Positions 2,303-35,480 of a DNA stretch of 64,000 bases are shown in pieces. The translations under genes were made by a program, and so were the position numbers. The notes below the pieces were generated by a model. The model was not told the DNA's origin and did no database searches. It saw only the letters and a program-made list of their open reading frames with translations. Source of the DNA: Chitinibacter fontanus. Its GTDB lineage: Bacteria > Pseudomonadota > Gammaproteobacteria > Burkholderiales > Chitinibacteraceae. The DNA is taken from the NCBI RefSeq assembly GCF_013423785.1, contig NZ_CP058952.1:1949665-2013664 (forward strand), written 5' to 3'. The stretch's first letter is position 1, and each line of letters begins with the position of its first letter.

Positions 2303-2326
2303 GGTTCAAGTCTGTCACTGCATTAA

Positions 2327-2355
2327 GAAAACCCACCTTTGCGGTGGGTTTTTTT
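2327..2355 (+). terminator. rho-independent terminator of the NhaD-type gene
   Basis: Stem ACCCACC (2331-2337) with GGTGGGT (2343-2349), followed by seven T's. Confidence 0.9.
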
Positions 2356-2790
2356 CTGGGCGGCATTATTAACCTATTAAATTGCGCAATATTGACGCAT
2401 ATTTGTTGACAGTAATTATGCTGCAACGTGTAAAGATTAGCTTGAAAATCGTGCAAGGCGATGTATGCTATGACGCGAGCATAAGGTTGGTTCTTACCAT
2501 CGTTTGTATTGCCCGGCGCGCCAAGCTGGTGATTTTTATGCTGAGCATGTGGCCAATTTGTTGTTGCAAACAAAGAAAAATGCCACTAGCCAAGTAATAA
2601 AATTACAGGAATGGGTCAACTTTTTGCGCTGTATCAAGCAATTTGGCATCAGTAGAGTAAAAGCCAACGTAGGATTTGATTTGTATCAGTAGCGGCCTGC
2701 CAGCACTCCGTATACTGGCTTCATCGGGTGAAGGGAATAAAGCCTTTTACCTAGCAATCACTAAACACAACCCAAATAAGAGGTGTTACC
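2356..2790 (+). other. 435-bp non-coding region upstream of phosphoketolase
   Basis: No convincing gene is seen. Two short open frames (2382-2597, 2504-2692) lack ribosome sites and family resemblance. The region holds a candidate sigma-70 promoter (TTGACA at 2405-2410, 17 bases, TGTAAA at 2428-2433) that could give a long leader or a small RNA. Nearer the gene is the FNR-type promoter listed separately. The inverted repeat CTTCA-N5-TGAAG (2719-2733) lies over the predicted start point and could be an operator or a leader hairpin. Confidence 0.5.
2676..2716 (+). promoter_or_regulatory. candidate class II FNR/ANR-activated promoter of xfp
   Basis: TTGAT-TTGT-ATCAG (2676-2689) matches the FNR consensus TTGAT-N4-ATCAA at 9 of 10 positions. 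The -10 hexamer TATACT (2711-2716) starts 35 bases after the box starts, putting the box centre at about -40.5 to -41.5 from a start near 2723-2724, the class II position. No good -35 hexamer is present, as expected for an activator-dependent promoter. The ribose operon promoter has the same spacing. Confidence 0.65.
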
Positions 2791-5196
2791 GTGGCTCAAC
2801 CGTTATCTCCAAGCGTATTAGATAGAATGCACCGCTACTTCCAAGCGGCAAACTATTTGTCTGTTGGTCAAATTTACTTGCTCGACAACCCAATGCTGAA
2901 ACTGCCGCTGAAACGCGAGCACATCAAGCCACGTTTGTTGGGCCACTGGGGTACTACACCTGGTTTGAACTTCATCTTCGCTCACGCAAACCGCATCATC
3001 ACTGAGCGTGAAGTGAACATGATCTACATCACTGGCCCTGGCCATGGTGGTCCTGGTTTCGTTGCGAATACTTGGATTGAAGGTTCTTATGAAGAATTCT
3101 TCCCAAGCATCGACCGTACTGAAGCAGGTATGCAACGCCTGTTCAAACAATTCTCTTTCCCACGCGGCATCCCATCGCACGTAGCGCCTGAAACTCCAGG
3201 TTCTATGCACGAAGGTGGCGAGTTGGGTTACTCAGTATCACACGCTTACGGCGCGGCTTTGGACAATCCAGACCAAGTTGTTATCGCTGTAGTCGGTGAC
3301 GGTGAAGCTGAAACTGGCCCATTGGCTGCTTCTTGGCACTCAACTAAATACATCCACCCGATCAATGACGGTTTTGTATTGCCAATCTTGCACCTGAACG
3401 GCTACAAAATTGCCAACCCAACCTTGTTGGCACGGATGAACAAAGATGAAGTAACTGCCTTGTTCACTGGTTACGGCTACGAGCCAATCTTCGTTGAATT
3501 GACCAACGAAACATTCAATGACAAGCCAGAAACATTCGAAAAAATCCACCAAGACATGGCTGCGGCAATGGACTTGTGTATGGACAAATTCGCTGCAATC
3601 CGCGCTGCTGCGATTGCTGAAAAAGACGCTGGCAAACCAATCACTCGCCCACGTTGGCCAATGATTGTAATGCGCACGCCAAAAGGCTGGACTGGCCCGA
3701 AAGAAATCAAAGGCAAAAAAGTAGAAGACTACTGGCGCAGCCACCAAGTGCCATTCTCTGATATCGATGGCGAGAATGTGATCAACTTGGAAAACTGGAT
3801 GCGTTCATACAATGTAGACACATTGTTCAATGCTGATGGTTCTGTAAAAGAAGACATCGTGTCATTGGCACCAAAAGGCCAAAAACGTATCGGCTCTAAC
3901 CCAGTTGTACACGGCCAAGTGTCGAAAGACCTGAAAATGCCAGACTTCCGTAACTACGAAGTTAAATTTGCAAAACCAGGTACTGAAAACGCTGAAATGA
4001 CTCGCGTAATGGGTAATTTCCTTGCCGATGTCATGAAAGAAAACGAAGCAGAGAAAAACTTCCGTATCTTCGGCCCAGATGAAACTGCATCTAACCGTTG
4101 GAATGCTACGATTGAGTACTCTGGTAAAACTTGGTTGGCTAACCACTTCGAAGTGGATGGCGTGAACAAGAATGACAACCTGCAACAAGATGGCCGCGTA
4201 ATGGAAATCTTGTCTGAGCATACTTGCCAAGGTTGGCTCGAAGCGTACAACTTGACTGGTCGTCACGGTTTCTTTAGCTGCTACGAAGCGTTCATCCACG
4301 TGATCGATTCAATGTTTAACCAGCACGCTAAATGGCTGAAAACAACTCGTCACATCAACTGGCGCAAACCGATTCCATCGTTGAACTACTTGTTGACTTC
4401 ACACGTATGGCGTCAAGACCACAACGGCTTCTCTCACCAAGATCCAGGCTTTATCGATCACGTGGTGAACAAAAAAGCTGAAGTGATCCGTGTTTACTTG
4501 CCAGCTGATGCGAACACCTTGTTGTCTGTAACTGACCACGTATTGCGTTCACGTCACTATGTGAACGTGGTAGTAGCCGGTAAACAGCCAGCGCTGCAAT
4601 ACCTGACTATGGACCAAGCGATCAAACACGCAACTAAAGGTCTGGGTATCTGGGATTGGGCATCAAACGATCAAGACGGCGAGCCAGATGTAGTCATGGC
4701 GTGTGCGGGTGAAATCCCAACAATGGAAGCTTTGGCTGCAACTGATATGCTGCGTCAACACTTCCCAGATCTGAAAATCCGCTTCGTTAACGTTTGCGAT
4801 TTGATGACTCTGCAACCTGAAGAAGAGCACCCACACGGCTTGTCAGACCGCGAATTCGACGCGATCTTCACAACTGACAAACCTGTGATGTTTGCCTTCC
4901 ACGGCTACCCATGGTTGATCCACCGTCTGACTTACCGTCGTAACGGCCACGCTAACATCCATGCTCGTGGTTACATCGAAGAAGGTTCTACTTCGACTCC
5001 GTTCGACATGGTTGTGGTTAACCAGCTTGACCGCTTCAACTTGGCAATCGACGTGATCGATCGTGTACCTAAACTGCAAAAAATCGGTGCACATGTTCGT
5101 CAGAAACTGACTGACAAACTGGTTGAACACGCGCAGTACATCGCTAAATACGGCGATGACATGCCAGAAGTTAAAGATTGGAAATGGCCATACTAA
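2791..5196 (+). CDS. xfp: xylulose-5-phosphate/fructose-6-phosphate phosphoketolase
   Basis: A thiamine-diphosphate enzyme that cleaves xylulose 5-phosphate (and often fructose 6-phosphate) with phosphate to acetyl phosphate plus a triose or tetrose phosphate. The 801-residue length is normal. Diagnostic stretches are [40 protein letters not shown] and the ThDP/Mg motif GDGEAETG at 169-176. Start is GTG after AAGAGG (2778-2783). Codon choice differs from neighbours (heavy use of AAA, CGT, GGT, CCA, ACT), resembling rplY at 61.4 kb and implying high expression. No acetate kinase or phosphotransacetylase lies alongside. The promoter appears to be FNR-type. Preference for X5P or F6P cannot be told from sequence. 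Confidence 0.95.
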
Positions 5197-5270
5197 TCTA
5201 GCCGCAACGCTTCTAGTTACTGCGAGCCTCGCTCGCAGACTAGAGCCCACTGCGTAGCTAGAAAGCCAAA

Positions 5271-5303
5271 GCCCGCGTTGATTTATCAGCGCGGGTTTTT
5301 TTT
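5271..5303 (+). terminator. terminator of xfp
   Basis: Stem CCCGCG (5272-5277) with CGCGGG (5290-5295), followed by eight T's. A second hairpin just upstream (CTGCGAGC 5220-5227 with GCTCGCAG 5231-5238, extended by flanking CTAG repeats) may protect the 3' end of this abundant mRNA. Confidence 0.85.
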
Positions 5304-34577: not shown

Positions 34578-35480
34578 ATGAATAAGGTATTGGTGGTTGG
34601 CAGTATTAATATGGATCTGGTCGCGCAGGTCGGGCATTACCCGCGCTTGGGGGAGACTTTGCTGGGGAGTGGATTTGCGACCTATCACGGTGGCAAAGGC
34701 GCCAATCAGGCAGTTGCCGCTGCGCGGCTCGGCGCACAAGTTACGATGATTGGCCGCGTGGGTGATGATGCCTTTGGGCGTGAGCTAACAGCCGGATTGC
34801 AAGCCGAAGGCATCAATACCGACTGGGTGAAAACCAGCCCCAATACCGCCAGTGGCATCGCGATGATTACGGTGTCGGACAGTGATAACGCCATTATCGT
34901 AGTGCCCGGTGCCAACGCACATTTAAGCCCCGCCGATATTGAGGCTGCCGAGGCGGCTTTTGAAAGTGCCGATGTGGTGATTGCCCAGCTGGAAACGCCG
35001 TTGGCGAGTATCGAAATGGCTGCGCTATTGGCCAATCGCTATGGCAAACCGTTTATTTTAAATCCTGCCCCAGCAATGCGTTTGCCTGTGAGTTTGCTCG
35101 ATAAAGTAGCGCTGCTAACACCGAATGAATTTGAATTGGGCATGGCGCTAGGCCGGCCTGAAAGTGAATGGCAGCAGGCCTTACAGCAATTGCCCGGCAA
35201 AGTGCTAATGACCGCAGGCGCTGACGGCGCATGGTTTACCGATGCCGCAGGTACTTTGCAGCAGCAAACGAGTTTTAAAGTGACTCCAGTCGATACCACC
35301 GGTGCAGGCGATACCTTTAATGGTGCCTTGGCCGCTTTTTGGGATTTGGGCCTATCCGCCGCCAGCCGCATGGCCTGTGCTGCCGGTGCTTTGTCGGTGA
35401 CCAAAGCCGGTGCGCAAAGCGGCATGCCTACCAAAGCGCAATTGCAGGCGTTTCTCAGTGAACAAGGAGAGGCAGAATGA
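34578..35480 (+). CDS. rbsK: ribokinase
   Basis: Phosphorylates ribose to ribose 5-phosphate in the cytosol. PfkB-family protein of 300 residues with the N-terminal VGSINMDLV, substrate loop GGKGANQAVAAARLG near residue 38-52 and the catalytic/anion-hole motif DTTGAGDTFNG near 241-251. GGAGG precedes the ATG. It is the first gene of the operon here, unlike E. coli (rbsDACBKR), and overlaps rbsD by four bases. Confidence 0.96.
   Translation: MNKVLVVGSINMDLVAQVGHYPRLGETLLGSGFATYHGGKGANQAVAAARLGAQVTMIGRVGDDAFGRELTAGLQAEGINTDWVKTSPNTASGIAMITVSDSDNAIIVVPGANAHLSPADIEAAEAAFESADVVIAQLETPLASIEMAALLANRYGKPFILNPAPAMRLPVSLLDKVALLTPNEFELGMALGRPESEWQQALQQLPGKVLMTAGADGAWFTDAAGTLQQQTSFKVTPVDTTGAGDTFNGALAAFWDLGLSAASRMACAAGALSVTKAGAQSGMPTKAQLQAFLSEQGEAE

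Follow-up and report, generated by a model that had tools for sequence, protein, structure and literature searches.

The window, by which we mean the whole stretch of 64,000 nucleotides that was analysed, is part of a genome of 3.63 Mb (G000), where the phosphoketolase gene xfp lies at C1:1952455-1954857. The open reading frame encodes a full phosphoketolase, with XFP_N, XFP and XFP_C domains found by profile search, which bears out the gene assignment made in a preliminary description of this DNA. A gene for a CitMHS_2-type transporter, ending at position 2302, precedes xfp, and predicted intrinsic terminators follow both genes (Table 1), so that xfp looks like a single-gene unit bounded by terminators on both sides. 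Because of the terminator after the transporter gene, xfp needs a promoter of its own within the 435 bases before its start codon. Two tandem tRNA-Lys (TTT) genes are also present in the window, at 117-190 and 211-286 on the minus strand.

Table 1. Features of the xfp locus and of related loci. Plain ranges are positions in the window; ranges with C1 are positions in the G000 genome.
Feature	Position	Strand	Basis or remarks
Intrinsic terminator 3' of the transporter gene	2325..2355	+	fold z -5.7
Second, weaker FNR-like site, TTGCGCTGTATCAA	2624..2637	+	conservation; centre about -92.5, 52 bp 5' of the main box
FNR box, TTGATTTGTATCAG	2676..2689	+	direct reading, conserved across genera; centre about -40.5 (class II position)
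-10 hexamer, TATACT	2711..2716	+	sequence, conserved; 21 bases (2690-2710) 3' of the box, without a -35
Predicted transcription start, A	2723..2723	+	predicted from sequence; 7 bases past the -10
Likely ribosome-binding site of xfp, AAGAGGTG	2778..2785	+	sequence
xfp, D-xylulose 5-phosphate/fructose 6-phosphate phosphoketolase	2791..5196	+	801 aa, GTG start, domain matches
Intrinsic terminator 3' of xfp	5268..5299	+	fold z -5.7
Perfect FNR box 5' of rbsK, TTGATATAAATCAA	34491..34504	+	sequence, conserved in several genera; N21, then TAGCAT
rbsK, ribokinase-like gene	34578-35480		named from sequence
ackA, acetate kinase	L204/L211, G000:C1:1740858-1742048	minus	degenerate FNR box and -10
fnr	G000 C1:3590089-3590832 (L068:590-1333)		NCBIfam Fnr PRK11161, 268.6 bits, cut-off 228

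The preliminary description had proposed a promoter with an FNR-type box, a gap of 21 bases, the hexamer TATACT and no -35 hexamer, the box being centred at about -41 as in class II activation. Direct reading recovers the box, the gap and the hexamer exactly where it had placed them. The 14-bp box TTGATTTGTATCAG, close to the form TTGAT-N4-ATCAA, agrees with TTGATNNNNATCAA at nine of ten positions, and with the predicted start its centre falls at -40.5, where class II sites are expected near -41.5 with a -10 hexamer 21-22 bases away. The hexamers at spacings of 16, 17 and 18 bases (GTAGCG, AGTAGC and CAGTAG) match TTGACA at two of six positions at most, and a promoter driven by a -35 was rejected for lack of such a match. 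In a consensus scan for sigma-70 promoters, the interval from the box to xfp gave no match and the sequence further upstream gave two, against 1.7 expected.

The box by itself was rejected as evidence: matches with up to two mismatches number 40 in the window, much the same as in shuffled sequences (34.5 expected). Genome-wide, TTGATNNNNATCAR has 34 strand matches at 26 distinct sites compared with 11 for the reversed control, and 14 of the 23 box loci inspected hold sites inside open reading frames, the other nine being intergenic. The combination of box, spacing and TANNNT is mildly enriched (10 versus 6), which makes it a weak means of finding a regulon across the genome. As judged from sequence comparison, it is by its position and conservation, rather than by the box itself, that the xfp site rises above chance.

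That conservation was assessed among 54 xfp matches in 61 genomes. The 420 bases 5' of the match start were examined at 47 of them, seven matches with a missing N-terminus or a weak match having been left out. The genera are numbered here; g1, to which the window belongs, is Chitinibacter, g4 Chitiniphilus, g8 Jeongeupia and g10 Chitinilyticum. Genus g9 is partly Formivibrio, the MAG G030 among its genomes bearing that name, and from identity we infer that g11 is Deefgea. The nearest named relative of G000 in the GTDB listing is Chitinibacter sp. GC72, with 99% identity in the xfp protein, followed by Chitinilyticum, Deefgea, Jeongeupia, Chitiniphilus and Formivibrio, genera whose family we take to be Chitinibacteraceae. 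The layout of box and -10 is present in 34 of the 47 upstream regions. The 13 regions without it comprise a second xfp copy in G032 (L061), eight regions from other families and four g9 pieces (L028, L065, L066 and L067) from two genomes, one of them fragmented.

To score the layout, the motif of the window (ten box and six -10 positions, spacing 21 or 22) was compared with 400 dinucleotide shuffles of each region. Counting first copies only, p was at most 0.005 in all 29 genomes of g1, g2, g3, g4, g5, g6, g8, g10 and g11, which are related and hence do not amount to 29 independent tests. The spacing between box and -10 is 21 bases in 27 of these genomes and 22 in two. A tenth genus, g7, is weak overall: two genomes, whose box stands at a much greater distance from the gene, reach p 0.01, and three of the five fail to beat the shuffles (p 0.11-0.13). 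Among eight genus representatives with a spacing of 21, mean pairwise identity is 0.89 and 0.84 in the box halves and 0.90 in the -10, compared with 0.41 in the spacer, 0.27 in the 70 bases upstream and 0.33 in the bases downstream. Since the layout was kept in nine genera while its flanks drifted to chance identity, it is under selection. In g4, g8 and g10 both halves of the box change jointly (TTGAC...GTCA), and the symmetry expected of a site for a dimer is thus preserved; FixK2 targets printed in PMC9104804 carry the same variants. In g2 and g4 another recurring element, about TTTAGTGATT-A-TCAC, was seen by eye upstream of the xfp box, with GTAACTTTGTCAC as its counterpart in g3. It lies roughly 20-45 bases 5' of the FNR box (L017-L021, L029, L030, L052, L053 and the g6 loci), in genera without the second FNR-like site described below.

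A wider scan covered the xfp upstream regions at 79 of 80 GTDB loci, one being too short. A relaxed box occurs at eight of the 79, and the reversed pattern, used as a control, at none. Six of the eight are in the Chitinibacter family and all six have the -10 in place, whereas the two outside it (L186 and L190) lack such a -10; for this reason the layout looks like a trait of the Chitinibacter family and not a general one.

One alternative is that another promoter drives xfp, the box being a relic or chiefly a site of repression. In its favour, the xfp start is a prediction and FNR is able to repress from some positions. However, the -10 has been conserved together with its distance from the box amid diverged sequence, the stretch from the box to the gene contains no further promoter match, and the upstream terminator opposes read-through into xfp; we regard this alternative as very improbable.

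The genome was searched for an FNR homologue with N-terminal cysteines, as the preliminary description had suggested, and one was found that carries all four cluster cysteines and scores above the curated cut-off. It aligns with Aliivibrio FNR (5cvr) at an E value of 8e-62, with the three N-terminal cysteines in register and the fourth aligned in VCELP/VCEIP, and has an E-x-x-S-R recognition helix. The fnr gene itself has a perfect box, TTGATCTAGATCAA, 89 bases 5' of its start codon. All 17 of the FNR-type proteins examined, drawn from 15 genomes of the family, have the C-X2-C-X5-C pattern and an E-T-V-S-R helix; the fourth cysteine was found in 15 by a narrow pattern and in the other two by eye (ICELP in L077, VCTFP in L078).

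A different member of the CRP/FNR family, either of the nitric-oxide-sensing DNR/NnrR type or of the FixK type, might occupy the xfp box in place of FNR. FixK2 is not known to carry an oxygen-sensing Fe-S cluster. The boxes of DNR, NnrR and FixK are nearly identical to that of FNR, and FixK2 targets given in PMC9104804 include TTGACCTGCGTCAA and TTGCGCTAGGTCAA. In the G000 genome five HTH_Crp_2 proteins exceed the cut-off and one more falls short of it, and a second FNR-like protein is present in some relatives in the family. Against this, four of these six were put to the Fnr model and one reached its cut-off, the protein with the E-T-V-S-R helix; the helices of the other three read SREMVNR, TRESVNK and SREMIAR, and that of a fifth protein, which was outside the model test, SREMIAK. 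We therefore consider a different regulator unlikely, and FNR the better candidate.

The gene ccoN (cbb3 oxidase), a classic target of FNR/ANR, offers a comparison. In 21 of 22 family genomes ccoN is preceded by a box matching at 9-10 of ten positions, in most cases followed after 22 bases by a -10-like sequence; the sole exception, where the box is missing, is G022 of g9. Xfp is likewise without the box in all four g9 upstream pieces, though two g9 genomes have FNR. The g9 loci (L028, L065-L067 and L285) therefore lack the box at both xfp and ccoN, and perhaps an oxygen-free lifestyle made the switch unnecessary in this genus. In g4, g8 and g10 a degenerate xfp box is found alongside a perfect ccoN box, which suggests, by inference from the two sequences, that xfp reacts later than ccoN as oxygen falls.

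Taken together, the box, its constant spacing from a -10 that lacks a -35, conservation in nine genera and an FNR with its cluster ligands argue that xfp is transcribed from an FNR-dependent class II promoter. We give this reading a probability of about 0.88, the start site and the effect of oxygen being predictions. The FNR-type regulation of phosphoketolase that had been suggested earlier is thus backed by the fnr gene, by the geometry in nine genera and by the similar layout at ccoN. At low oxygen FNR would keep its [4Fe-4S] cluster, dimerise, bind the box at 2676-2689 and touch RNA polymerase at the point that lacks a -35 contact, and transcription would start near 2723; in air the cluster would be lost and xfp only weakly expressed. 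The phosphoketolase would split xylulose 5-phosphate or fructose 6-phosphate to yield acetyl phosphate, which acetate kinase, encoded by ackA elsewhere in the genome, would turn into ATP without respiration. Very probably, then, the cell switches on an ATP-yielding phosphoketolase pathway as oxygen runs low.

Beyond what the preliminary description contained, we found a second FNR-like site upstream of the xfp box and boxes at rbsK and ackA. Every one of the 11 g1 and g11 genomes has the second site, 51-52 bp 5' of the main box; it scores 8-9 of ten (8 of ten in the window, where it is centred at -92.5 and its left half departs from the consensus). Between g1 and g11 it is 0.83 identical, compared with the random level of 0.23-0.26 in its flanks and in the stretch between the two sites. 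It may be the site of another factor, or a chance resemblance, rather than an FNR site: its left half (TTGCG, TTGCT or TTGTT) deviates from TTGAT, the score is just 8-9 of ten, and it is confined to g1 and g11. Its retention in 11 of 11 genomes at a fixed distance, with identity far above that of the flanks, argues the other way, and we hold that view to be the less probable one, with appreciable weight. The second site probably tunes the response of xfp in g1 and g11; as a likely mechanism, the main box would activate the gene and the second site would damp it at high FNR activity.

The arrangement resembles that of E. coli yfiD, where one site near -41 activates and another lies near -93 (at -93.5 according to PMC11264516). 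The two differ in that damping by the upstream site was tested at yfiD, and in that the candidate site at xfp is weaker; the discussion of the same paper also describes a test promoter on which an additional FNR site, placed between -85 and -95, exerted strong repression.

The second gene with a box, rbsK, was examined in 21 upstream regions. The box is perfect in all five g1 regions and in the single g10 and g11 regions, matches at nine of ten positions in two g7 regions and at eight in two g8 regions, and has no convincing counterpart in the ten regions of g2-g6 and g9. The rbsK gene probably belongs to the same regulon as xfp. At ackA, TTGATATTCGCCAA is followed in G000 by 22 bases and then TAGACT. 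Among 23 ackA upstream regions, the box is retained in all six g1 genomes, TTGATATGTACCAA occurs in three regions (two from g3, one from g5), and TTGATTTTGGCCAA in one of two from g7; the other 13 regions (g2, g4, g6, g8, g9, g10, g11 and one of two from g7) give poor matches. The route from ribose to ATP through acetyl phosphate includes the reactions of ribokinase, phosphoketolase and acetate kinase, so that common control of the three genes by FNR would be coherent. Perfect FNR boxes were also noted at L099 (G000:C1:1688977-1688990) and L106 (G000:C1:2744505-2744518), whose neighbours look from their sequence like genes for a PTS sugar permease and a carbohydrate-binding protein, respectively.

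A more speculative proposal, which we regard as doubtful, is that in Chitinibacter and g11 the two xfp sites form a yfiD-type band-pass and, with the boxed rbsK and ackA, a module for making ATP from pentose via acetate at the oxygen interface. The strong box at -40.5 would turn xfp on as oxygen falls and the weaker site at -92.5 would turn it down in full anoxia; if this were so, phosphoketolase would peak in micro-oxia.

We found no description of FNR control of xfp in the Chitinibacter family in the searchable literature, and no papers on Chitinibacter and phosphoketolase. The present analysis provides a testable and well-supported link from oxygen sensing to the phosphoketolase-acetate kinase route in Chitinibacter-family betaproteobacteria. 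In addition, two genera carry naturally paired FNR-like sites spaced as in yfiD, a system for studying the second-site effect outside the enterics.

Control of phosphoketolase by the FNR family has precedents elsewhere, and the mechanism is an ordinary one of a known kind. The closest is bll2518-bll2517 (phosphoketolase-acetate kinase) of Bradyrhizobium diazoefficiens, both genes of which drop about 10-fold without fixK2 (PMC9104804). As in our case, a phosphoketolase there stands under a CRP/FNR-family activator at low oxygen, with the box TTGACCTCACGCAA; the systems differ in that FixK2 depends on FixLJ whereas the candidate regulator in Chitinibacter is FNR, and in that xfp and ackA form one predicted operon in B. 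diazoefficiens and lie apart in G000 (PMC9104804). The B. diazoefficiens phosphoketolase gene also appears in a table of micro-oxia proteins and transcripts in PMC6515984. For Pseudomonas aeruginosa, a table in PMC8575079 includes the phosphoketolase PA3613 among anaerobic-metabolism genes changed without the sRNA ErsA, and ackA-pta is said there to be activated by Anr; PA3613 is not mentioned in the main text of PMC6588701. In Rhodopseudomonas palustris, PMC3050613 lists the putative phosphoketolase Rpal_1869 as a putative FixK target whose level in a fixK mutant was 9.4-fold lower under one condition, with small or no effects in others, and a putative phosphoketolase is a predicted FixK target in PMC2908626 as well. 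The regulator in R. palustris is the alphaproteobacterial FixK (PMC3050613), whereas in G000 it would be FNR.
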